Origin: Chloroflexota bacterium
GTDB taxonomy: Bacteria; Chloroflexota; Anaerolineae; UBA4142; SHND01
Assembly (NCBI GenBank): GCA_029778615.1
Contig: JAKOPZ010000130.1
Span: 1 to 32,165 of the forward strand
Direction of reading: 5' to 3'
Length of the DNA: 32,165 nt
A program made the position numbers and the translations under genes. This document shows, piece after piece, positions 5,895-32,165 of this stretch. Every line of letters starts with the position of its first letter. Within the stretch, counting starts at the first letter, position 1. Below the pieces are notes generated by a model. It was not told where the DNA came from. It made no database searches and was given only the letters and a program-made list of their open reading frames with translations.

Positions 5895-5926
5895 TACTAT
5901 TTAAACTTCGGGCGGTTGGAAACCGC

Positions 5927-6240
5927 AGCGACCCATAGCGAAACCGATCTACATCGGTTTCAAGCAAACAGAGTCAACGGAGGTTGACTTGGCAATGGGT
6001 TGCTGCGAATTCTATTCAGCGACCCATAGGGAAAGCGATCTACATCGGTTTCAAGCAAACAGAGTCAACGGAGGTTGACTTGGCAGTGGGTTGCTGCGAA
6101 TTCTATTCAGCGACCCAAAGCGAAACCGATCTATATGGGTTTCAAGCAAACAGAGTCAACGGAGGTTGACTTGGCAGTGGGTTTCAACAAACGCAGTCAA
6201 CGGAGGTTGACTTGGCAGTGGGTTGCTGCGAATTCTATTC
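5927..6240. repeat. 91-bp structured tandem repeat array
   Basis: About three and a half units with a 91-bp period (unit starts at 5927, 6018 and 6109), the third shortened and followed by a partial duplicate. Each unit contains nested palindromes: GAAACCGAT/ATCGGTTTC around CTAC (perfect in unit 1), GTCAAC/GTTGAC around GGAG, and outer arms AGCGACCCAT and ATGGGTTGCT that pair with one G-U. The array lies between the convergent argF and MutS-like genes, and its right end overlaps the TAG stop (6235-6237) of the latter. No spacer-like variable segments are present, so it is not CRISPR. Bidirectional termination is a possible role. Confidence 0.85.
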
Positions 6241-8100
6241 GCCCGATTTCACTTTAATCGGCAACCCTTCCAGCTCCATAATTTTCAACGCGTTCGTCGT
6301 GGGACTCGGACCCGCGCGCAACAGATAATCAAACACCAATTTTCCATCGCGCACCTCGTCGCGGAAATGATAATTTCGCGCGCGCGAATTGTTGTCGGCG
6401 AGATGCGCGAGTTCCAAATCGTGCGTCGCAATGAGACCGATGCCGCGCGCGCCGAGCAGTGCTTGAATATACGCGCGGCTGCCGATGAGCCGTTCGCGAT
6501 TATTCGTCCCGCGAAAAATTTCGTCAATCAAATACAACAGCGGCAGTTCATCGTCGCGTTGTAAATCCTGTAGTAATGTCTTGAGACATTTGACCTCTGC
6601 GTAAAAGTACGAAAAGCCATCCAGAATCGAATCGGTGATGCGAATGCACGTGTGCAAACGAAACGGCTGCGCGAAAAATTGCGATGCCATCACAGGCGCG
6701 CCCGCGTGGGCGAGACAAAAATTGATGCCCACCGTTTTGAGAAACGTGCTTTTCCCCGCCATGTTCGAACCCGTCAAAATATCCACTTGCCCCAATTCTT
6801 GAATTTCAAAATCATTCGCCACACGCGCATCCGCGCGAATCAACGGATGCGCCAAATTCTCGACGTGCAACGCGGGCGATATATCCGCGCGAAGTTCGGG
6901 AAATGCCGCGTCGGGATGCAGCGCCGCGAAATTTCCCAATGCAATGAGCGCGTCGAGTTCGTGCACCACGCGCACCCATTCGGGCAAAACGTGCGCGATG
7001 TTCTCGCGTTCGCGCGCGGCGAGAGCGGCAAACAAAAAATCCCACGGCGAAATTACGTTCAACAAAACGGACCACAGCGGATTGTTTCGTAAACCGACGG
7101 CGGCAGTAATCCACTGCACGCGGCGCAATTCTTGCGAGGGCACGGGACTTTTGTTGACGAACGGCGCGCACAATTCCGCCAGATGCGGCGCATTGCGGTA
7201 CGATGCGCGTTCGAGATACTCCACCAGCGCGCGAAATTTTTCCAATTCCGCGTTCACGCGGACGACCGCGCTCAAAATCGTTTCCAATTCTTTTTGATTC
7301 CAATAATAAAACGCAGCATAGGCGACGAGCGAGAGAATGAACCATGGCGGGAACGAAAAATATTGCCAAAGGATGAACAGGAGCAAATTGATAGCGACGA
7401 GCAGCGCGGCGACGGGCAGTGTCCAACGCAAACGCGCGGCGGGGAATTCCGTCTTGAGCCAATCGAGTAAATTGTCGCCTTCGAGCTCGCGTTTCAACAC
7501 GCGGCGATAGGTGAGCCAAAAGCGCTCGCGAAATCGCGCGCGCGGTTTCAATTCCCGCACAATGTTTTGGCGCGCGCCCAACGCGTTTGTATCGGGACGC
7601 GACGACGTGAGCCATTCCGCGAGCAATTGCGTGCCGTGACGCGAAACGGTCGTGTCGAGGAGTTGATGGAGTGAGCGATAGCCCGTGAGGTCGAGGTCGA
7701 GCGCGAGAGACTTGTCTTTTAATTCAATTGGACGCGGCGGCGGGAGCGATTCCCAATCGAGAAGCATTCGCGCGCGTTGGTCGCTTTTTAGCGCGCGCAA
7801 AAGGGTGAGTGTTTCAATCCAATTTTCTAAACGCCGATGGAGAAAAACGAGGACGAGAAAAACGAAAAGCGAGAATGCGAAAACGAGCCACGCGAGCGCG
7901 CTATTGAAAAAAAGCGCGGCGAGAATGGCGTCGAGGATTCCAAGCAGAACGATTGCAAGACGCAGTAACGCGATGCGATTGCTCTGCTGTTCCAACGGAC
8001 GCAAACGTTTCGAGAGACGTTCGATTTGAAAGGCGAGAGATTGGAGATTGGAGACTGGAGATTTGTCCCGCGCAGAGACAAGGGTTCGGAGGTTGGACAC
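6235..8100 (-). CDS. Membrane-anchored MutS-like ATPase
   Basis: 621-residue MutS-family protein. Two hydrophobic helices near residues 45-90 (LAIVLLGILDAILAALFF, WLVFAFSLFVFLVLVF) and two more near 225-265 indicate a membrane-anchored form. A helical MutS core/lever region follows, then the ATPase: Walker A TGSNMAGKST (Lys450), Walker B YLIDEIFRGTNNRER (Asp526, Glu527) and the ATHDLELA switch. The mismatch-recognition domain I is absent, so this is the 'MutS-related' branch, not MutS1; its role is not established. The start is GTG, one base after the FAD oxidoreductase stop, so it is the last gene of the long operon. Residues about 13-22 are encoded by a heptamer tandem repeat, and the stop lies inside the 91-bp repeat array. 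Confidence 0.8.
   Translation of the reverse strand: MSNLRTLVSARDKSPVSNLQSLAFQIERLSKRLRPLEQQSNRIALLRLAIVLLGILDAILAALFFNSALAWLVFAFSLFVFLVLVFLHRRLENWIETLTLLRALKSDQRARMLLDWESLPPPRPIELKDKSLALDLDLTGYRSLHQLLDTTVSRHGTQLLAEWLTSSRPDTNALGARQNIVRELKPRARFRERFWLTYRRVLKRELEGDNLLDWLKTEFPAARLRWTLPVAALLVAINLLLFILWQYFSFPPWFILSLVAYAAFYYWNQKELETILSAVVRVNAELEKFRALVEYLERASYRNAPHLAELCAPFVNKSPVPSQELRRVQWITAAVGLRNNPLWSVLLNVISPWDFLFAALAARERENIAHVLPEWVRVVHELDALIALGNFAALHPDAAFPELRADISPALHVENLAHPLIRADARVANDFEIQELGQVDILTGSNMAGKSTFLKTVGINFCLAHAGAPVMASQFFAQPFRLHTCIRITDSILDGFSYFYAEVKCLKTLLQDLQRDDELPLLYLIDEIFRGTNNRERLIGSRAYIQALLGARGIGLIATHDLELAHLADNNSRARNYHFRDEVRDGKLVFDYLLRAGPSPTTNALKIMELEGLPIKVKSGE
8035..8062. repeat. Heptamer tandem repeat (TGGAGAY), in coding sequence
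   Basis: Four 7-bp units (GAGAGAT, TGGAGAT, TGGAGAC, TGGAGAT) inside the N-terminal part of the MutS-like gene. On the coding strand they yield residues around SPVSNLQS. The same motif recurs at 15540-15574, 31338-31365 and 31999-32068. Confidence 0.7.
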
Positions 8101-15532: not shown

Positions 15533-15539
15533 TGGCGAC

Positions 15540-15574
15540 CGGAGAGTGGAGACGGGAGATTGGAGACTAGAGAT
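15540..15574. repeat. Heptamer tandem repeat (TGGAGAY), intergenic
   Basis: Five 7-bp units: CGGAGAG, TGGAGAC, GGGAGAT, TGGAGAC, TAGAGAT. They lie just upstream of the TerC promoter in the TerC-dnaE divergent region. Same motif as at 8035, 31338 and 31999. Confidence 0.75.
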
Positions 15575-15604
15575 TCGCGTTTGGAATGCTGCGTGTCTCC
15601 ACAA

Positions 15605-15878: not shown

Positions 15879-15950
15879 GGAACGCGGCGGCGGGGAACGC
15901 GGCGGCGGGGAACGCGGCGGCGGGGAACGCGGCGGCGAGCGTTCCCTACT
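15879..15950 (+). repeat. Hairpin-capped 15-bp minisatellite, locus A
   Basis: Four 15-bp units (GGAACGCGGCGGCGG; the last ends in GA) followed by GCGTTCC and CTACT. The last unit's GGAACGC pairs perfectly with the terminal GCGTTCC, making a hairpin cap. It lies between the dnaE promoter and the dnaE ATG. Related arrays with the same cap are at 23258-23376 (minus) and 28212-28313. Confidence 0.8.
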
Positions 15951-15965
15951 CATTTCTCATAGCTC

Positions 15966-18900
15966 ATGGCTGAATTCGTCCATCTCCACGTTCATTCCGA
16001 ATATTCACTCCTTGACGGCTTGTCGCGTACCAAAGGACTCGCGGCGCGCGCCAAAGAATTGAACATGCCCGCCGTCGCCATCACCGACCACGGCACAATG
16101 TTCGCGGCGATTGAATTTCATGACGCGTGCAAAGCGCAGGGCGTGAAACCCATCATCGGCGTCGAGGCGTACCTCGCGCCGCGTACGATGGCAGACCGCG
16201 ACAGCAAAATTGACCGCTCGCCGTACCACCTTTTATTGCTCGCGGAAAACGAACTCGGCTATAAAAATCTTTTAAAAATTTCTTCGACCGCGCAGCTGCA
16301 AGGATTTTATCAAAAGCCGCGCGTGGACAAGGCGTATTTAGAAAAAACGTGCGCGGGACTCATCGCGACGACGGGCTGTCTCGCCGCCGAAATTCCGCAA
16401 TTGCTCGTGCAAGGCAAAACGCGACAGGCGCGCGATTTGGTGGACTGGTATCGCCAAATTTTCCAAGACCGTTTTTACATTGAACTTCAAGAACACGGCA
16501 TCCCCGAACTCACGCGCATCAATCAAGATTTGATTGCCCTCGCGCGCGAATTTAATTTGAAATTGATTGCGACGAACGATGTCCATTACGTGAACAAAGA
16601 CGATTGGTTCGCGCAAGATGTTTTGTTGTGCGTGCAAACGGGCGCGTTGGTGAGCCAGAGCGACCGCATGAAAATGGACGGGCGCGATTATTGGTTCAAG
16701 TCGCAGGATGAAATGTTCGAGCTGTGGCGCGAAATTCCCGATGCGCTCACCAACACGCTCGAAATCGCGGAACGCTGCAACGTTGATTTGTCATTCAAAG
16801 GATATCACCTTCCGAATTTCCCCGTCCCCGATGGACATACCGCCGATGGTTATTTGCGCGCGATTTGCGAACAGGGATTTCGCCAGCGCTATCCCGATGC
16901 CTCGCCCGCGCACATCGAACGATTGAATTACGAACTGGGCGTCATTCACAAGATGGGCTTTGATACCTACTTTCTCATCGTGTGGGACTTGACGCGTCAC
17001 GCGCGCGAAAATGGCATCTGGGCAAATGCGCGCGGTTCGGCAGCCGGTTCGATGGTCGCTTATTGTCTCGGCATCACCAATCTCGACCCGCTCCAACACA
17101 ATCTCATCTTTGAGCGTTTTCTCAACCCCGACCGCATCTCGATGCCCGACATTGATTTGGATTTTCCTGACGATGCGCGTCAAGAAATGATTGACTATAC
17201 GGTCAACAAGTACGGCAGAGACAACGTCGCGCAAATTATTACCTTCGGCAAAATGTTGGCGAAAGCGGCGATTCGCGATGTCGGACGCGCGATGGATTAT
17301 CCGTTGAGCGAAACAGACCGCGTCGCAAAATTAATTCCCGTCGGTCCCGGCAAAACGATTGACGGCACGCTCGAAGAAGTGCGCGAGTTCCGCGAACTGT
17401 ACGAAAGTTCCGATTACATCAAGAAATTGATTGACAATGCGAAACTGTTGGAAGGCGTCACGCGCAATGCGTCCACCCACGCGGCGGGCGTCGTCGTCAC
17501 CGACAAGCCGGTGATTGAATACACACCGCTGCATCGTCCCACGCGCGGCGATGAATCGGGCACGCCCGTGACGCAATATCCGATGGGCGACATTGAACAC
17601 ATCGGACTTTTGAAAATTGATTTTCTCGGACTGGCGCATCTCACAATTGTGCGTGAAGCGTGCAAACTTATCAATGCACGGCACGGCACAAATTTTGATT
17701 TGAACAGCATCCCCGTCGAGGACGATGAAGCGTTCAAGTTGTTGTCGCGCGGCGATGTGATTGGTGTTTTCCAAGTCGAAGGCGCTGGGATGAAACGCGT
17801 GCTGATGCAGATGCGTCCTGCCAAATTCGACCACATCGTCGCGACGATTGCGCTCTATCGCCCGGGACCGATGGATTACATTCCGACGTACATTGCGCGT
17901 TTGCACGGACAGGAAAAAGTAAAATATCATCATCCCGCGCTCGAACCGATTTTGTCCGAAACGTTCGGCATCATGGTGTATCAAGAACAAATCATGCGGA
18001 TTGCGCGTGACTTGTGCGGCTTTACCGGCGGCGAAACGGACACACTGCGAAAAGCGGTGGGCAAGAAAAACAAAGAAGCGATTCTCAAACAGCGCGAAAA
18101 ATTTATTTCCGGCGCAGGCAAAACGGGTATCATTACGGAAGAAATCGCGGCGAAAATTTTTGACGACATTGAATTTTTCGCGCGCTATGGTTTCAACAAA
18201 GCACATGCGGCAGTGTACGGCGTTCTCACCGGACAGACCGCGTATCTAAAAGCGCATTACACGATTGAATACATGACCGCGCTGTTGTCCACCGATATTG
18301 GCAACACGGAAAAAGTGGCAATGTTCATTGCCGAAGCGCGGCATTTGGGCATTCCCATTTTGCCGCCGGATGTGCGCTACAGCGGCATGAAATTTACAAT
18401 TGACGATGACGCGCACGCAATTCGCGGCGGCTTGCTCGCAATCAAAAATGTCGGCGAAGGTCCGGTGCAAGCGATTCTCGATGGACGCGGCGACAAGCCA
18501 TTCGATTCACTCGATGATTTTTGTACGCGCGTTGATTTGAAACAAGTGAACCGCCGCGTGTTGGAATCGCTCATCAAAGCGGGCGCGTTCGACGCATTCG
18601 GTCATCGCGCGCAATTGCTCGAAGCGATTGACCAGATGTTGTCCATCAGCGCGTCGCATCACAGCGCGAGCGCGGCGGGACAAATGAGCATGTTCGGCGG
18701 ATTGCTGGCAGCGGACACGTTTGGCGAACTGCCCAAGGTCAAAGAGATTGACAACAAGACGCAGCTCGAGTGGGAAAAAGAATTGATGGGCGTGTACTTT
18801 ACGCCGCATCCCTTGTTGAAACTCGCGGACAGCGCGAAAAAACATGTGGGCGCGTATGTCGGTGAAATCACCAACGAGAGCGATGGACACAACGTCACCA

Positions 18901-20021
18901 TCGGCGGCATCATCAAAAGCGTGCGCCAAATCGTTACCAAAAAAGGCGATGCGATGGCGTTCCTCCAAGTCGAAGACCCGCAAGGCACGATAGAGGTCGT
19001 CGCGTTTCCGCGCACATTCAACGACTGCCGCGATGTGATTCACGAAGACGCGCTCGTACTCGTGCGCGGCAAAGTCCAAGTGCGCGAAGACAAAATCGCG
19101 ATTCTTGCAGACTTGATTTGGAATTTTCCGGTTGAAACACCAAAACCCGAAGCCGTCGCGCAAGCGGACCGTCCGATTCCCGGAATTTTTTCCAACACGC
19201 CCGTCATTGTCCCTGCGCCGCCGCCGAGAGTGGATGAAATGGTTGAACGTGTTCTCGATGATTGGATGCCGCCGCCCGGCGATTGGGATGAGGAACTGAC
19301 GACGGACGACGCGCGAGAAATGAGAAACGAGACAAGCGCGTCCGATGTGGTTCACGCAAGCGCCGAGCCGGTTGCAGTCCCCGAACAACTTGCGCGTGCG
19401 GAAGATTCAAGCGGCGTGATTGCCGAAACCCAAACGGAAATTCCCGGTGAGAATGAGGATTGGTTCAAACCGAGCGATAATGATTTTGCCGAACCGGAAG
19501 CAGTTGCGATTCATGTTGAAACGCTCACGCTCAAACAAGAAATCGTTGCGCCTCCCATCGAAAAACCCATGAACGAAACACCTGCGCCCGCACAAAACAG
19601 TTCGCCTTTTTCAACGCCTCCCGTTCCCGAAATCAAACTCGGCGGCGGTGTCCCCATTCCGAGCAAAAATGGCGGCAATGGCGCGGCGCGCCCGCAACAT
19701 TCCGCGCCCGCGCCGCGCGGCAATGTGGGAAATGTCGCGCGTGAAAGTTCCGCCGCGTTTTTCCCGCGCAGCAGCGGCAATGCGCGCCGCGTGCGGGTGC
19801 GGCTGTATCGCACGCACGATACCGCGATGGATATGAAACACATGCGCGAAGTGGTGAAACTGCTGCGCGGCGCGGACGGGCACGACCGTTTTGCGTTGAT
19901 TGTGCCGCACGAATCGAGTTGGGTCGAACTCGACTTTCCCAATTTTTACACCAACATTGAGCAAGTGACGCCCCGGCTCGTGGATATGGTCAGCGAATGG
20001 GGAGCTGTAGAAATCGGTTAA
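15966..20021 (+). CDS. dnaE: DNA polymerase III subunit alpha
   Basis: 1351-residue replicative DNA polymerase. N-terminal PHP domain (HLHVHSEYSLLDG, TDHGTMF), palm with the catalytic aspartates in PDIDLDFPDDAR (about 395-403) and the third in LLKIDFLGL (about 549-557), fingers/tau-type helical parts, helix-hairpin-helix region, and OB-fold (NVTIGGIIKSVRQIVTKKGD). Beyond about residue 1056 comes a Pro/Glu-rich linker of about 220 residues without conserved look, and then a compact C-terminal domain (RVRVRLYRTHDTAMDMKHMR). The total is longer than E. coli DnaE. No SD precedes the ATG (CATAGCTC). A hairpin terminator follows the stop directly. Monocistronic by spacing. Confidence 0.95.
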   Translation: MAEFVHLHVHSEYSLLDGLSRTKGLAARAKELNMPAVAITDHGTMFAAIEFHDACKAQGVKPIIGVEAYLAPRTMADRDSKIDRSPYHLLLLAENELGYKNLLKISSTAQLQGFYQKPRVDKAYLEKTCAGLIATTGCLAAEIPQLLVQGKTRQARDLVDWYRQIFQDRFYIELQEHGIPELTRINQDLIALAREFNLKLIATNDVHYVNKDDWFAQDVLLCVQTGALVSQSDRMKMDGRDYWFKSQDEMFELWREIPDALTNTLEIAERCNVDLSFKGYHLPNFPVPDGHTADGYLRAICEQGFRQRYPDASPAHIERLNYELGVIHKMGFDTYFLIVWDLTRHARENGIWANARGSAAGSMVAYCLGITNLDPLQHNLIFERFLNPDRISMPDIDLDFPDDARQEMIDYTVNKYGRDNVAQIITFGKMLAKAAIRDVGRAMDYPLSETDRVAKLIPVGPGKTIDGTLEEVREFRELYESSDYIKKLIDNAKLLEGVTRNASTHAAGVVVTDKPVIEYTPLHRPTRGDESGTPVTQYPMGDIEHIGLLKIDFLGLAHLTIVREACKLINARHGTNFDLNSIPVEDDEAFKLLSRGDVIGVFQVEGAGMKRVLMQMRPAKFDHIVATIALYRPGPMDYIPTYIARLHGQEKVKYHHPALEPILSETFGIMVYQEQIMRIARDLCGFTGGETDTLRKAVGKKNKEAILKQREKFISGAGKTGIITEEIAAKIFDDIEFFARYGFNKAHAAVYGVLTGQTAYLKAHYTIEYMTALLSTDIGNTEKVAMFIAEARHLGIPILPPDVRYSGMKFTIDDDAHAIRGGLLAIKNVGEGPVQAILDGRGDKPFDSLDDFCTRVDLKQVNRRVLESLIKAGAFDAFGHRAQLLEAIDQMLSISASHHSASAAGQMSMFGGLLAADTFGELPKVKEIDNKTQLEWEKELMGVYFTPHPLLKLADSAKKHVGAYVGEITNESDGHNVTIGGIIKSVRQIVTKKGDAMAFLQVEDPQGTIEVVAFPRTFNDCRDVIHEDALVLVRGKVQVREDKIAILADLIWNFPVETPKPEAVAQADRPIPGIFSNTPVIVPAPPPRVDEMVERVLDDWMPPPGDWDEELTTDDAREMRNETSASDVVHASAEPVAVPEQLARAEDSSGVIAETQTEIPGENEDWFKPSDNDFAEPEAVAIHVETLTLKQEIVAPPIEKPMNETPAPAQNSSPFSTPPVPEIKLGGGVPIPSKNGGNGAARPQHSAPAPRGNVGNVARESSAAFFPRSSGNARRVRVRLYRTHDTAMDMKHMREVVKLLRGADGHDRFALIVPHESSWVELDFPNFYTNIEQVTPRLVDMVSEWGAVEIG

Positions 20022-22270: not shown

Positions 22271-24850
22271 TTATTTGAAGGCGAGCTGCGGTGTGGCGTC
22301 TGCCGTTTCTTCCACGTCAAGACGCTGGATAATTTCTTTTTCTTCGGGCGTCACCAACACTTTGAGCGTGGTGTAAAAACCATCGGGGAGCACGAGCACA
22401 CAATAGCCGCGCGGGCGGCGGCGCGCGCCGATAATCAAATCAATCAACGCGGGTTCGTACCCTTTTTCAATCAACATTTCGCGGTCTTCGGCGCCGACCT
22501 GAAAATACGCGGCGGTACGAAATTTTTGCAAGGCAATGCCGAGATTACTGCCGAGCAAATCGCGCAGCGTTTGCGTCGCCGCGGCGATGACAAGTTTGCG
22601 TTCGGGCCAATCGCGGAACGCTTCCGCGACATATGTCGCCACCTGCTGCGCGTTTTCGGAGAGGTCGCGGTCTTTGGGCATGAGGCGGTGAATTTCGTCA
22701 ATCACCAGCGCGGCGGGGGTGTTGCGCGAGGGCAGCCATTCTTCGTAAAAGATTTTCATGAACGCGAGCAAGCACGGGTCGTCGGCAAGCGCATACGGGC
22801 GCGTGCCTTTGACAGGTTGATACAACACGGCGCGTTCGGAAACGAGCGCGGCGCGCGTTTTTTCTTCAAACCATTTCAAATCGTCCGTCGGATGCAAGGT
22901 GACCCCGCCAATCGCCTCCATGGCGGCTTGCATGCGCGTCGAATATTTAAGGTTGATGGCGACGACTTTATAATTCAAAATTTGCAGACGCAGCAAGAAC
23001 CACACAATCAGCGTCGAAGATTTTCCTCCCCCTTGGTCGCTCACCAACAAAACGGGTCCGGTATCCGAACGAAAGTCCGCGTATCGCAAACCTTCTTTGC
23101 CTGCGGTCACACTGCGCCCCAACAAAATTCTGCCGCGCGCGTCGGCGAGATGAATGTCACTGCCTTCTTCGCGCGCGAGCGTGGTCAACACTTGCGCGCT
23201 CAATAATCGCTGCGCGGGCGGGCGCGGCGGCAGCGTCAACCAATTCATCACGCGGTACGGAACGTTCGCCGTAACGTTCCCCGCAGCGTTCCCCGCAGCG
23301 TTCCCCGCAGCGTTCCCCGCAGCGTTCCCCGCAGCGTTCCCCGCAGCGTTCCCCGCAGCGTTCCCCGCAGCGTTTCGCAATACAGGCAGCCACGCTTCCA
23401 TTGAATCATCCAGCGCGCGGTCTGTCAGCGCGGTGAGATTCAACGCGGTAAGGTATGATGCCGCGAAATTCTGATTGAGCTGCGCGTCACGTTCGGTTTT
23501 GCCCCACGTGACCAGATACGTTTCGGTATCAAAAAGATATTCGAGCGAACGTTTGTCTTCTAATTTTTCCAGCGTGTCGCGCAGCTCGCGCGCGTGCTGC
23601 ACGCGTCCCAGTCCGGGCACGCGCGCCGCGAGCAGTTCGCCGCGAATTTGGGTCGCGCTCGTGTCACGCGGCAAAGGCGTAATCGTCACGCTCAACAGTC
23701 CGTCCGCCGCGCCGAGCGCGCGCATTAACGCCTCGCGCGCTTGATTGAACGGCGTATTGACGCGCAGCACCTGTAAAACATTTTTTTGTTCGCGCGCTTG
23801 CGTCGTGAGCATGGCGCCAATCTGCATTTGTTCGGGCACGTACCCGCGATACGCCACACGCGGCAGGGTGCCCGCATCGAGCAGCGTCGTCTGTTGAATT
23901 TGCCCCAAAAAACTTTCGCCACCGAAAATCATCCGCAGCAAGGATTCCGCCGCGTACGCGCCGAGGGGCGACATGCCCATATCCAGCGCGCCGAGCCAAT
24001 CGCGCATGCGGTCTGCGACGAACGTCGGATAGACGATGCCTGTGATGATGACGCGGGCGCGCCGCGCGCCGCTCGACGCAAGTTCTTGCAGCGCATTCAA
24101 ATAGTCTTGCGGTACGCGCTGCGCGCCGTCGCTGTCGGTCAAATCCAGCTGTCCGAGATGATAATCGGTGAGCCAAAACAGTTTGATGGGCACCGCGCCT
24201 TCTTCGTGCTGCGCGAGATACGCGAGAAATTTTGTGAGTGTGTCGGCAACATCGGCGGCGGCAAGCGCGGGTTTGTAGCCGGTGCGTCCGAGCGTGATGA
24301 GCGAGACTTGTACGCGTGTGCCGTCGCGCGCCACGATTTCGCCGTCGGTTTCGATTCTTTGAATCGGCAAGCGTCCCGCGACGGTTTCGAGATTCAATTT
24401 GCCACCGTTCGTTTCGCGCTGCGCGATGAGCCAAAACAAAATCGCGACGAGGACCAATAGCAATGCGCCCAACATGCCCACGCGAGAATCGGCGAGCGCG
24501 AGCAATCCAATTGCGACGAGCGACGCGGCAAGCATCGCCAGCAAATAAAATTGCGCTTCGCGTTTGTGAGACGGCAGGGTCAAGGGTTTGAACAACCATT
24601 CATACAAAGAACGCAGTGCGCCGACGACCACACGCCAGCGTTTGTAAAACGCAAACAGCAAAACGTACACCGCCAGCGGTCCGAAAATTTGAATGCCCGC
24701 GAAATTGCGCAAGCTTGCCCACGCGACCATCAAGCCGCCGACGGTCAGCGCGAGCAATTCCAACCACGTCAGACCAAGCGTCGTGGTGTAATTGAGAAAT
24801 GCCCAGAGACGCGCGAGGAAAATCGCGCGGGGGGAAGAAGGAGTACGCAT
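22271..24850 (-). CDS. Membrane-anchored VirB4/HerA-like ATPase
   Basis: 859-residue protein. About four hydrophobic helices lie in the first 150 residues (two pairs), then a beta/alpha middle region, then a C-terminal RecA-fold pumping ATPase: Walker [11 protein letters not shown] (Lys610), Walker [13 protein letters not shown] (Asp718, Glu719), and a Gln/Arg sensor block ([14 protein letters not shown]). The ending ([14 protein letters not shown]) is VirB4/TraC-like. N-terminal helices recall VirB3-VirB4 fusions. Residues about 493-530 are an in-frame insertion encoded by a minisatellite (eight NAAG repeats then NVTANVPYR). No SD; a TAAAAT lies just before the ATG. HerA-type alternatives are possible. 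Probable motor of the T4SS-like cluster. Confidence 0.75.
23258..23376 (-). repeat. Hairpin-capped minisatellite, locus B (in-frame)
   Basis: On the minus strand eight 12-bp units of GGAACGCTGCGG type (first one altered), then a 15-bp terminal unit (GGAACGTTACGGCGA) followed by ACGTTCC and GTAC. It forms the same cap as loci A and C, but the seventh stem pair is T-A (GGAACGT with ACGTTCC) instead of C-G. It lies in frame within the VirB4-like gene. Confidence 0.85.
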
Positions 24851-27991: not shown

Positions 27992-28024
27992 AAAAAACCT
28001 CGTGTAACGCACACGAGGTTTTTT
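27992..28024. terminator. Bidirectional intrinsic terminator
   Basis: Perfect 14-bp stem AAAAAACCTCGTGT with ACACGAGGTTTTTT around loop AACGC, between convergent SIS gene (+) and ftsK (-). It overlaps the ftsK stop codon. Confidence 0.9.
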
Positions 28025-30779
28025 AATCCTTGTCCAAATCTGCCCAGTCCTGGTCCGTCCAATCGTCGAAACTGCCGAGCTCGTCATTCTCTTTCGAGCT
28101 GCGCTCCTCCTTTTTTGTCGCGTCGCGGTTGGACGCCGAACGCGGCGCGGTCTTGTTCCCCGCGTTCGGCGGGCGAATGATGCCGCTGTTGGCAGAGGGC
28201 GCAGGCGGTGCGGAACGCTGCGGCTCGGAACGTTGCGGTGTGGAACGCTCCGGTGTGGAACGCTCCGGTGTGGAACGCTGCGGTGTGGAACGCTGCGGCG
28301 AGCGTTCCGTACTGATTGGGGGAGGGGTGAGGACTTGGCGTCCTTTGGTCGGCATGCCTTCTTCTTCGCTCACGTATCCTTTTTCAATCAAGAGTTCCAT
28401 CAAGCGCGCCGCGCGCGAATAGCCGATGCGTAATTTGCGCTGCAAAAGCGAAACGGACGCGCGCTCATTGTCTTGTACAATTTGAATCGCCTGATTCAGC
28501 AATTCGTCTTGTTCGGAAATTTTCGGTTCCGCCTTCAAGTCGCTCCACAAACCGCCTTGCACAAAATTTCCCGTCGCGGGCGGATACTTGATTGCCGAGG
28601 GCGACACACTTGCTTTCGGCGCGTTGGAAAGGGTCGAGATGGTCGGTACGGGCGGCGGCGCGGGTTCGATGAATCCTTTCCAATACGTGACCAATTTTTC
28701 CAATTCTTTATCGGAAACGAAACAGCCCTGCAAGCGCGCGAGTTTTGACGAATCGCTCGCCATGTACAACATGTCGCCGCGTCCCAACAATTTTTCCGCG
28801 CCTGGCGTATCCAGCACGACGCGCGAGTCCACTTGACTGGTGACCGCGAACGAAATGCGCGAGGGAAAGTTTGCTTTGATGAGACCCGTTACCACATCTA
28901 CACTCGGACGCTGTGTGGCGAGAACGAGATGAATGCCTGTGGCGCGCGCCATCTGCGCGAGCCGCGTGACAGTGTGTTCCACTTCGTCGGGCGCGGTCAT
29001 CATCAAGTCCGCGAGTTCATCCACCACCAAAATTAGGTACGGCAATTTCGCGCCGCGCCGTTTCTCTTCCGGCAGCGCGTTGTATCCTTCGATGTTGCGC
29101 GCGCCGACGGCGGAAAATTTGCGATAGCGCTCGTCCATTTCTTGTACGGTGCGATTCAATGCCGCGACAGCCAAATCCATTTCGACGACGACGGGCGCGA
29201 GCAGATGCGGGATGCCGTTAAAGGTCGAAAGTTCGACACGCTTGGGATCAATCATCACAAACTGCAAATCGTCAGGCGTGTTGGTCATAATCGTGCACGT
29301 AATCAACGCGTTGATACAGACCGATTTACCGGAACCCGTCGCGCCCGCCACGAGGAGGTGCGGCATCTTGCCCAAATCCGCACAAATCGGTTGCCCCGAA
29401 ACATCTTGTCCCAGCGCAAACGCGAGCGGCGCTTTGGCGCGCAATTTTTGAAACTCTTCCGATTCCATCACCCCGCGCAAACTCACGCGCGAAATTTGCG
29501 AGTTGGGCACTTCGATGCCGACGATGCTTTTGCCGGGCACGGGCGCTTCCACACGAATCGGCGCGGCGGCGAGCGCGAGCTCCAAATCATGTTGGAGCGC
29601 GCTGATGCGATTCACTTTGACTTTGGTTTGGCGCAGTGTCCCATCCGAAGTTTTTTGTTGTACAAATCCGGGTTCCACGCCAAATTGGGTAATCGTCGGA
29701 CCTTGATTCACTTCGATGACTTTGGCGGGCACGCCAAAATGCGCGAGGGTTTCTTCGATTTGTTTGACTTTGGTGCGAATTTCGTTCGCGCTGATTTCTT
29801 GCTCGATAGATTCTTCGAGAATGTCCGGGACGCCCGGCAAGCGCCAGGCGCGATGCACCATCGGCTGTGCGGGCGCGCTGCCGCCGACGATGCGCGCGGC
29901 AACGGGCGGACGCAATGGCGTCAGCGGTTCTTGTTCGAACCGTTCGTCCATTCCAAAATCGGCAGGCAGTTTTGGCAGTTGGTCGGCGGGCTGGCGTCTA
30001 TTGTCAATGCTCTGTCGCGGCGGCGCCGTCACCATTTCGGTCGGCACGCGTTCTTTGCCGTTGCGCGTAATTTTGATTCCCGACGCGCGCTGCGCGAGCG
30101 ATTGAACATTGGTAATACTTGCGGCGATGGTGGCGAGAATTTGCGAAAAGGGAATGTTGAACAGCAGAATCAGCCCGATGGCGAGCGCAACGACAAGTAC
30201 CAGTAACGCCCCTGCAAGCCCCAGCCCACCAACCAACGCGTCATACAGCGCGTGTCCAATCAACCCCCCCCCCTGTCCCGCCTGCGCGGTGGCGAGGGAC
30301 GTTTTCGCAATTTGGAAAAAATCAACGCCGAGGATTTGGAGAAAACTTTCGAGGACGAAAAAAAGAATAATGAGCGCGAACGGTCGTTCCCAACCGATGT
30401 CGGGACGCATGTCGAGTGAATCGAGCATGAGCCACGCGCCGAGCCCGGCGAAAAAGAACGGCGCGAGATAACGTCCCCAACCGAACAGAATGGCAAGCAC
30501 ACGCGTCCAGCCGTCGAGCAAACTGCCGTTGGTGGGATTCACCGCGCCGAGAAAGGTCAAGGCGGCAATGATGAGGAGCACGACCGCAGAGAGTTGTTCT
30601 TGCTGGGCGGGGTTGAGCGAAAAGCCCGGACGCGGCGCTTTGCGCGTGGAACTGCCGCGCGGACGGCGCGGAGGGCGGGCGGGAGAGGGATTGCCTTGTG
30701 CCACAGATGCGTCAGGTTTGGAACTCGAATTGGCGCGCGGTTTTGGGGAACGCCGCGACGCGGATGCAAAAAATTTCAT
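28023..30779 (-). CDS. ftsK: DNA translocase FtsK/SpoIIIE
   Basis: 918-residue DNA translocase for chromosome segregation at division. A basic, disordered start of about 50 residues is followed by about four or five membrane helices (60-225), a Pro/Gln linker, alpha domain (about 330-420), and beta motor: Walker A GATGSGKS (Lys485) and Walker B LILVVDELADL (Asp587, Glu588). Then comes the winged-helix gamma domain (about 754-806; SLLQRKLRIGYSRAARLMELL). Unlike normal FtsK it continues about 110 residues beyond gamma: a stretch of RS(T/E/A)P-type five-residue repeats from a 15-bp minisatellite, then a charged tail ending DDWTDQDWADLDKD. No SD precedes the ATG. Consensus promoter and hairpin in the leader. 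Confidence 0.93.
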   Translation of the reverse strand: MKFFASASRRSPKPRANSSSKPDASVAQGNPSPARPPRRPRGSSTRKAPRPGFSLNPAQQEQLSAVVLLIIAALTFLGAVNPTNGSLLDGWTRVLAILFGWGRYLAPFFFAGLGAWLMLDSLDMRPDIGWERPFALIILFFVLESFLQILGVDFFQIAKTSLATAQAGQGGGLIGHALYDALVGGLGLAGALLVLVVALAIGLILLFNIPFSQILATIAASITNVQSLAQRASGIKITRNGKERVPTEMVTAPPRQSIDNRRQPADQLPKLPADFGMDERFEQEPLTPLRPPVAARIVGGSAPAQPMVHRAWRLPGVPDILEESIEQEISANEIRTKVKQIEETLAHFGVPAKVIEVNQGPTITQFGVEPGFVQQKTSDGTLRQTKVKVNRISALQHDLELALAAAPIRVEAPVPGKSIVGIEVPNSQISRVSLRGVMESEEFQKLRAKAPLAFALGQDVSGQPICADLGKMPHLLVAGATGSGKSVCINALITCTIMTNTPDDLQFVMIDPKRVELSTFNGIPHLLAPVVVEMDLAVAALNRTVQEMDERYRKFSAVGARNIEGYNALPEEKRRGAKLPYLILVVDELADLMMTAPDEVEHTVTRLAQMARATGIHLVLATQRPSVDVVTGLIKANFPSRISFAVTSQVDSRVVLDTPGAEKLLGRGDMLYMASDSSKLARLQGCFVSDKELEKLVTYWKGFIEPAPPPVPTISTLSNAPKASVSPSAIKYPPATGNFVQGGLWSDLKAEPKISEQDELLNQAIQIVQDNERASVSLLQRKLRIGYSRAARLMELLIEKGYVSEEEGMPTKGRQVLTPPPISTERSPQRSTPQRSTPERSTPERSTPQRSEPQRSAPPAPSANSGIIRPPNAGNKTAPRSASNRDATKKEERSSKENDELGSFDDWTDQDWADLDKD
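28212..28313 (+). repeat. Hairpin-capped 15-bp minisatellite, locus C (in-frame)
   Basis: Six 15-bp units (GGAACGCTGCGGTGT type; variants at a few positions), the last ending CGA, followed by GCGTTCC and GTACT. The cap stem GGAACGC/GCGTTCC matches locus A. The array is on the plus strand, antisense to ftsK, and encodes the five-residue repeats of the FtsK C-terminal tail. Confidence 0.85.
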
Positions 30780-30941: not shown

Positions 30942-32165
30942 TTAATTCAAAAGCAAAGTATAGAGTTCCAAATGCGCGTCGGCGATTTTGTCCCACGTAA
31001 AAAATTGGGCAGTCTCACGCGCGCCGCGCTGCAACCGCGCGCGCAGTTCGGGACTGGCGGCGATGCCTTTCACCGCGTCCGCAATGGCGCGCGGATTTTC
31101 CGGCGGAATGAGCAAGACATTTTCGCCGTCGCGTAATACAGGAAGGGCTGAATTTTGAGCAATCGTCATTGGTCGTTTGTCGTTCGTCGTGATGATCGCC
31201 ATGCCGTGTGCCAGCGCTGCCATAAACGTTCCGCGCCGATATGACGCGCCGTCGCGGTACGGCAGTACGCAAATGTCCGACGCGTAAAAATGCGCGCTGA
31301 TTTTTTCCGACGGCATAAAATCGGTCCAAATGACGCGATTCTCCAGTCTCCGGTCTCCAATTTCCTTTTTCACTTTTTCCAAATACGCGAAATTCGTTAC
31401 ATCGCTTGCGCCGGTTTGTCCGCCGAGCATCAAGAGTTTTGCGTTCGGGATTTCCGATAGCGCGCGGATGAGCGTTTCGCCGCCTTTGCTTTCGTTCAAG
31501 AATCCAAAATAGCAGAGCAGAATTTCGTCGGGCTGTACGCCGAGTTGGGCGCGCAGCGCGGCGCGATGGAGATTTCTCGCTCCGATGTAGGCAAGAGAAT
31601 CCATCGCATCGGAATCGCTCGAAATGACTGGCGTGGGAGGATTGATGTTGCTGCCGATGGGAATCAAAGTTAAACGTTTCAAGTTCAAAGCGTAAAGTCT
31701 AGAGTAATCGTCCTCGTTCGTCGCAATCACCGCGTCGCTTGCGCGCGCGAGTTGAAACGTGACCCAATCACGCACGCGTCCCGCTTTTGGGAACAAGTAC
31801 ATCGGGCGCAAGTCGTGAAAGGTGACGACGCTCTTGACGCGCGTGGGAAAAAAGCGCGGCGCGAAATTTATCATCGGATGCATTCCAAACGCGGCAGTCT
31901 GATATTGAATATGCACAATGTCGGTGCGCGTTTCGGAAATGGTCTTGCGAATTTGCGCGAGGGCGGACCAGTTCCATTTTTGGATGGTGCGAAGGACGTG
32001 GAGATTAGAGACTGGAGATTGGAGATTAGAGACTGGAGACTGGAGACTGGAGACTGCTGACTGTTGACTTGATAAAACGGAAACCACCACGCCGCGTTGT
32101 GCGAGGGCGCGCGCGATTTCGTTGGTGCAATCGCCGACGCCGCCTTGCATCGGGGGAAACTCGCC
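30942..32165 (-). CDS. GT4-type glycosyltransferase, partial (N-terminus outside window)
   Basis: About 407 residues visible; the frame is open through the right edge (GEFPPMQGGVGD reads into the window from upstream), so the start is missing. Typical GT-B family 4 features: the GGVGD donor-site loop near the start, HIQYQT and VTFHDLRP in the N-terminal half, FGFLNESKGGETLIRAL, and the C-terminal LRDGENVLLIPPENP with an E-x-Y/S-type segment upstream (YRDGASYRRGTFMAALAHG). Role: glycosyl transfer for surface polysaccharide or glycolipid; substrate unknown. Three heptamer tandem repeats lie in frame within the gene. SIS-domain isomerase gene nearby may belong to the same surface-glycan theme. 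No SD information, as the start is absent. Confidence 0.85.
   Translation of the reverse strand, partial: GEFPPMQGGVGDCTNEIARALAQRGVVVSVLSSQQSAVSSLQSPVSNLQSPVSNLHVLRTIQKWNWSALAQIRKTISETRTDIVHIQYQTAAFGMHPMINFAPRFFPTRVKSVVTFHDLRPMYLFPKAGRVRDWVTFQLARASDAVIATNEDDYSRLYALNLKRLTLIPIGSNINPPTPVISSDSDAMDSLAYIGARNLHRAALRAQLGVQPDEILLCYFGFLNESKGGETLIRALSEIPNAKLLMLGGQTGASDVTNFAYLEKVKKEIGDRRLENRVIWTDFMPSEKISAHFYASDICVLPYRDGASYRRGTFMAALAHGMAIITTNDKRPMTIAQNSALPVLRDGENVLLIPPENPRAIADAVKGIAASPELRARLQRGARETAQFFTWDKIADAHLELYTLLLN
31164..31191. repeat. Heptamer tandem repeat (ACGACNA) in GT gene
   Basis: Four 7-bp units (TCGTCAT, TGGTCGT, TTGTCGT, TCGTCGT on the plus strand). On the coding strand it falls at TTNDKRPMTIA, between the alanine-rich helix and LRDGENVLL, where family members normally have a shorter loop. 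Confidence 0.65.
31338..31365. repeat. Heptamer tandem repeat (TGGAGAY) in GT gene
   Basis: Four units (ATTCTCC, AGTCTCC, GGTCTCC, AATTTCC on the plus strand), complementary to the TGGAGAY motif. It encodes the segment EIGDRRLENR of the glycosyltransferase. Confidence 0.65.
31999..32068. repeat. Heptamer tandem repeat (TGGAGAY), longest copy, in GT gene
   Basis: Ten 7-bp units (TGGAGAT, TAGAGAC, TGGAGAT, TGGAGAT, TAGAGAC, three TGGAGAC, TGCTGAC, TGTTGAC). On the coding strand it encodes the Ser/Gln-rich SLQSPVSNLQSPVSNL stretch near the N-terminus, with the 21-bp (7-residue) periodicity expected for three heptamers. Confidence 0.85.

Follow-up and report, generated by a model that had tools for sequence, protein, structure and literature searches.

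In a 32,165-nucleotide stretch of a Chloroflexota genome (the window; it is contig C236 in an assembly that totals 6.0 Mb over 372 contigs), short tandem repeats at three places end in a similar small hairpin, which raises the question of whether they are simple repeats that happen to terminate in a palindrome or copies of a discrete element that spreads. An earlier note, made from the letters of the window, had proposed a dispersed minisatellite family with a hairpin end under selection, perhaps recognized by a protein, and had matched it to no named element. Our analysis keeps the spreading and the hairpin, and moves the identity of the element from the array to its cap.

A tagged hairpin dispersed in the genome

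The architecture common to the three loci is borne out (table 1): shorter units lie 5' of a 22-nt hairpin of consensus GGAACG NNN CGGCGA N CGTTCC, followed in the window by CTAC or GTAC, and a single 26-nt module, GGAACGNNNCGGCGANCGTTCC+NTAC, is repeated exactly in all three caps. They agree with the consensus at each of its 20 fixed positions, when the best match after first-order Markov resampling of the window (40 resamples) still has 5 mismatches. Folded as single-stranded DNA, each cap forms a hairpin that leaves its four-base tag unpaired, with a modest z-score (-1.6) at locus A. The 7-bp stem first described holds for A and falls one pair short for B and C, where T8 also pairs with A15; similarly, TAC does follow the stem and the conserved tail is the longer NTAC. 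At locus B, the units belong to one subtype (CTG) and the cap to another (TTA), and all three caps are lone hairpins with no inverted partner. An Rfam search of the window returned no match. The window further contains a tandem repeat of 91 bp (5926-6224; 2.8 copies, 95%, with nested palindromes) and dispersed TGGAGAC-type heptamer arrays (8037-8063, 15533-15575, and 31999-32063).

Table 1. Arrays, caps, and tags of the three loci, in window coordinates
Feature	Position	Strand	Description
Locus A array	15879..15923	+	Three 15-bp units GGAACGCGGCGGCGG; upstream of dnaE (15966-20021)
Locus A cap	15924..15945	+	Putative REP hairpin GGAACGCGGCGGCGAGCGTTCC; 7-bp stem, G8-A15 mismatch
Locus A tag	15946..15949	+	CTAC, GTAG on the minus strand
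Locus B array	23281..23376	-	Eight 12-bp units, seven GGAACGCTGCGG and the outermost GAAACGCTGCGG; in frame in ORF 22271-24850 (-), coding for (GNAA)n
Locus B cap	23259..23280	-	Putative REP hairpin GGAACGTTACGGCGAACGTTCC; 8-bp stem
Locus B tag	23255..23258	-	GTAC
Locus C array	28212..28286	+	Five 15-bp units; read on the opposite strand, in frame in the FtsK C-terminal tail (ORF 28023-30779, -); repeats such as TPQRS/TPERS
Locus C cap	28287..28308	+	Putative REP hairpin GGAACGCTGCGGCGAGCGTTCC; 8-bp stem
Locus C tag	28309..28312	+	GTAC

A search of the whole genome confirmed that the family is dispersed, with 63 exact caps against 0 for a reversed control pattern. A looser scan that allowed changes in the arms brought the wider family to 129 copies in the genome stretches examined, and a sister hairpin, GGAACGAAACGGCGTTCGTTCC, has arms, loop, and tag in common with the cap hairpin. 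When the 116 hairpins of the combined family are oriented by their loop, NTAC stands at the same end in 110, the opposite end being variable; read on the other strand, an NTAC-ended copy is GTAN followed by the hairpin, with an unpaired tag at one end that is degenerate at its fourth base (complemented: G in 69 of 129 copies, C in 47, T in 10, and A in 3). Copies lie within long ORFs in 48 cases out of 116, in both orientations. Many G000 contigs end or start at these hairpins (L001, L013, L016, L021, L023, L027, and L030), so that the true copy number is probably higher.

The compensated base pair that had been noticed between caps (GGAACGT/ACGTTCC in B vs GGAACGC/GCGTTCC in A and C) turned out to be one instance of a general pairing constraint, the hairpin end being kept by compensatory change. 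Among 112 distinct sequences, drawn from this genome, three relatives of the same genus, and matches in named genomes by a scan that tolerated arm mismatches, four stem pairs covary: against shuffles, which ignore shared ancestry, Watson-Crick pairing is found in 102 sequences at 7:16 (shuffled mean 36, maximum 53), 101 at 8:15 (mean 51, maximum 67), 98 at 1:22 (mean 76, maximum 83), and 103 at 3:20 (mean 83, maximum 94). Pairs 2, 4, 5, and 6 are near-invariant and thus uninformative in this respect. The search consensus favors paired arms at its fixed positions and leaves 7, 8, 15, and 16 free; at these, CT/AG, TT/AA, and AA/TT account for 40, 35, and 34 of the 116 hairpins, and because both 7:16 and 8:15 occur as all four Watson-Crick types, the stem must have changed more than once. 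The correct register is paired in 92% of cells, as opposed to 8-32% after a slide of 1-3 columns, whereas 9:14 is unpaired and the loop, NCGGCG, is almost fixed.

Neighboring hairpins form 29 tag-outward, 11 tag-inward, and 12 head-tail pairs, and in 26 of the 29 tag-outward pairs an AA-type hairpin is joined to another type. Their spacer measures about 9-25 bases without an array and up to about 200 with one, which places the array of a pair between both hairpins. By analogy with described elements, this is the layout of REPs and REPINs.

Exact hairpins recur in three genomes of the genus (G001, G002, and G005) and, within the same order, in several further genera; they are absent from two further genomes of the genus (G003 and G004), from all 40 class relatives outside the order, and from a further sample of 300 genomes of the phylum. 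Named species were scanned with a search that relied on the consensus and shows presence rather than frequency; it found other subtypes, among the matches listed, in assemblies of Armatimonadota, Acidobacteria/Acidobacteriota, Pirellulales/Planctomycetota, and Abditibacteriales, with the arm ends, CGGCG loop, and tag seen here and, again among the matches listed, several tag-outward pairs. That these subtypes are mostly unlike those of Chloroflexota counts against contamination. No RAYT was seen beside them in the flanking DNA examined at those loci.

Insertion into genes and probable local growth of arrays

If the family spreads, some relatives should be empty at the corresponding sites, and the comparison of orthologues supports the earlier proposal of a spreading element, as the arrays of all three loci are missing from same-genus orthologues. 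The locus A array is absent before dnaE in G003, G004, G005, and more distant relatives. At about the same place, G001 (L120) and G002 (L119) have an unrelated 9-bp array (cgcactatc/cgcactaac). At locus B, about 33 codons (the GNAA repeats and the cap) are inserted in frame into an ORF of 859 aa, whose product has no Pfam match and displays an ATPase-like GGGKSS stretch, noted by eye in the translation, making it a putative ATPase; its orthologues in G003 (L062) and G001 (L063) harbor unrelated short insertions at the same point, which thus appears to be an insertion-tolerant linker. At locus C, FtsK has an in-frame insertion of about 30 codons in its C-terminal tail, past the gamma domain. 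Outside the window, where gene names were read from the sequences by eye, one inverted hairpin pair makes up a 19-aa insertion in a P-type ATPase, a PEP carboxylase has 7 inserted aa, an Lhr-like helicase contains an array, and an M28-like peptidase has an insertion as well; the copy in a biotin carboxylase (L007) looks like a replacement, in that the loop is not lengthened. As the flanks have diverged, the exact boundaries of these insertions cannot be fixed.

Arrays, for their part, are optional. Two or more like-sized units accompany 31 of the 116 hairpins, when 73 have no array at all, and the array sits on the untagged side in 31 cases and on the tagged side in 2. Hence, contrary to the earlier proposal, the minisatellite is not the element itself: it is an optional, local growth by the hairpin. 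Units start with GGAACG at hairpin base 1, where the 5' arm begins, and in almost every array they match their own cap over 6-20 bases before diverging. The presence of 29 distinct unit sequences among 31 arrays suggests that arrays probably arose locally, after insertion. For about half of the arrays, the tail of the unit is also found just ahead of the first unit, as expected if the copied stretch took in some flank; for the other half it is not. At one site common to this genome and G001, the cap is identical and the array has two units in one and five in the other. Finally, unit length is a multiple of 3 in all 13 arrays located in long ORFs versus 10 of 18 elsewhere (Fisher p 0.0096), lengths of 11, 16, 17, and 22 being confined to arrays outside long ORFs.

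A candidate protein partner and the competing explanations

The suggestion that a protein recognizes the hairpin end has gained a likely candidate, namely the product of a RAYT-like, IS200-like gene of 187 aa on contig C6 (L034/L226, 375-935, minus), with REPs on both sides, six in about 1.2 kb. A gene 93% identical is flanked by the same hairpins in G002, some of which have switched their outermost pair to C-G, and in both species the TAG stop codon of the gene lies within the GTAG tag. Since the protein scores 76.9 bits (E 1.4e-21) against NCBIfam NF047646, just missing the curated cut-off of 80, we call it RAYT-like only; against Pfam Y1_Tnp it reaches 21.5 bits for a cut-off of 23. Its MPDHLHFIV and SYVLNNPVRKGLV stretches were compared by eye with RAYT motifs, and we take them to be the HUH motif and the tyrosine of the C-terminal part. 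It has no sequence relative in the PDB (E 0.01), and its single-sequence structure model is too poor for use (mean pLDDT 33). Neither G001 (68 copies) nor G005 (112 copies) has a close relative of this gene, although both contain other RAYTs, so that a C6-type RAYT does not always accompany the repeats. This hairpin family is absent from the flanks of most other RAYTs, and the Y1 transposase loci L031-L033 contain no exact copy of the hairpin (L033 has a three-mismatch cousin). Other RAYT genes (L033, L354, L235-L240, L247, and others) are flanked by different GTAG hairpins (GTAGGACAA..TTGTC, GTAGCAACGGAACCAGGTTCCGTTG, and GTAGACACGGAACC..), which indicates that multiple REP/RAYT systems coexist; L033 and L354 also have TGAACG-type cousins of the present hairpin.

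On this basis, we consider it highly probable that a GTAG-type REP, a RAYT-like partner, and arrays grown by slippage together account for the loci. The cap would be a repetitive extragenic palindrome (REP) of GTAG type, made of the 22-nt hairpin and its unpaired GTAN tag, and the complete form would be REPIN-like, with two inverted hairpins whose tags point outward. Copies exposed as single strands during replication would be recognized by the cognate RAYT, an IS200/IS605-like HUH transposase, through their stem, CGGCG loop, and tag, a recognition that may be what keeps the cap under selection; the enzyme, presumably of the C6 type, would insert copies elsewhere, genes included, with survival of in-frame outcomes only within genes. 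The inserted hairpin would then stall DNA synthesis, and once the 5' arm, the loop, and part of the 3' arm had been copied, the nascent strand would slip back to where the 5' arm begins; repetition of this copying would leave, on the untagged side, a locus-specific array of copies truncated at their 3' end, with one full hairpin as its cap. Replication slippage, known for DNA polymerases at hairpin templates (PMC4134008), is the most likely origin of the arrays. As it could act on either side of the hairpin, the polarity of 31 versus 2 calls for an additional reason, one possibility being that arrays on the tag side would move the tag away from the end that is mobile.

Other explanations can be confronted with the same observations. 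Ordinary minisatellites of a GC-rich genome, with the hairpin end as a by-product and no mobility, would fit the other simple arrays of the window (the TGGAGAC heptamers and others) and the variation of units between loci; this is however already refuted by arrayless copies that keep the exact hairpin and tag (73 of the 116 hairpins have no array), and also meets the conservation of hairpin and tag everywhere when units are not conserved, the covariation of the stem, the insertions relative to orthologues, and the polarity of the tag, so that we grant it almost no credence. It is likewise very improbable that the hairpins persist because they serve as RNA elements (terminators or mRNA stabilizers) or as DNA uptake signals: they are strand-specific, and secondary roles of this kind are described for REPs of other bacteria in PMC3733652, but the window lacks an Rfam match, CTAC or GTAC instead of a T-run follows the stem in the three caps, copies lie in long ORFs in either orientation, and subtypes vary by lineage.

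The remaining alternatives accept that the family spreads and dispute how. Mobile REPs whose arrays were made by the transposase itself, which would insert again and again at the untagged end in an aborted or rolling manner, would readily explain both the polarity and units that start at hairpin base 1. We nevertheless regard this as unlikely, as unit length and the 3' part of the unit differ at almost every locus and some arrays run on from the flank, both of which fit a local copying error, and as unit number differs between two species next to an unchanged cap, as slippage would give. A spread that needs no transposase, in which copies interact during replication through gene conversion or template switching, finds some support in the high copy numbers of G001 and G005 and in the replacement seen in biotin carboxylase; against it stand the REPs that surround the RAYT gene of two species, where the tag contains the stop codon, and net insertions at most of the sites compared, which make it quite unlikely in our view.

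If a mobile REP with slippage at its hairpin is the right explanation, the element could be a mobile seed of protein repeats, in-frame insertion being followed by hairpin-driven slippage that yields locus-specific peptide runs; we put this forward as a real possibility rather than as our expectation. One mobile family would then keep making new repeat tails and linkers (GNAA, QERYGE, and TPQRS) in conserved proteins, FtsK included. Mobile palindromes and minisatellites, usually separate, are here joined in a single anatomy, of which this one genome offers many independent examples and in which both act within conserved coding genes, and as the seed, i.e., the cap, is still attached to each array, the origin of these minisatellites is testable.

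Relation to known palindromic repeats

Tiny hairpins at many sites, some of them in frame within genes, are reportedly also a feature of the small dispersed repeats of cyanobacteria, as far as a comparison by description goes. The same can be said, by description only, of the palindromic elements (RPEs) of Rickettsia, which are cited in PMC3733652 and for which some in-frame copies in coding genes are likewise noted.

A much closer match, at odds with the earlier idea that no named element resembles this one, is offered by REPs and REPINs. As in REPINs with their RAYTs (Bertels and Rainey 2011, PMC3116915), two inverted REPs are separated by a short spacer and the RAYT gene is flanked by its own REPs; unlike REPINs, the pairs described here mostly unite two subtypes (AA with CT or TT), their spacer often contains an array, and there are numerous intragenic copies and numerous singlets. 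The GTAG-tagged REP superfamily (Di Nocera, De Gregorio and Rocco 2013, PMC3733652), as characterized there, consists of palindromes of 20-40 bp with an unpaired tag at one end, GTAG, and stems of 5-13 bp, ranges that include the 22 nt and 7-8 bp found here. Complementary stem changes that define subfamilies, head-head dimers (with a predominance of tag-outward pairs in our case), a TAG stop within the tag, some intragenic copies, and a nearby RAYT are common to both, and GTAG repeats are reported there in Chloroflexi as well (Thermomicrobium roseum GTAG-23). We therefore see a strong case for membership of the GTAG REPs, even with a degenerate tag and a RAYT just under the curated cut-off, and a high probability, as part of the whole explanation, that the hairpins form a new GTAG-type REP/REPIN family, novelty being judged outside the Figure 1 consensus list of PMC3733652, where a listed family (e.g., of Planctomycetes) may correspond to them. 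It would add to the superfamily a family of Anaerolineae-type Chloroflexota, and variant subtypes that share its tag, stem base, and loop occur in several other phyla. What sets it apart is a tag that reads GTAN, exact copies that are restricted to one order among the Chloroflexota sampled, and an array of truncated units next to about a quarter of the copies. Tandem REPs with flanks do appear in the text of PMC3733652, from which the words “minisatellite” and “slippage” are absent; compared with known GTAG REPs, the novelty would thus lie in the many copies that carry hairpin-capped minisatellites, often in frame within genes.
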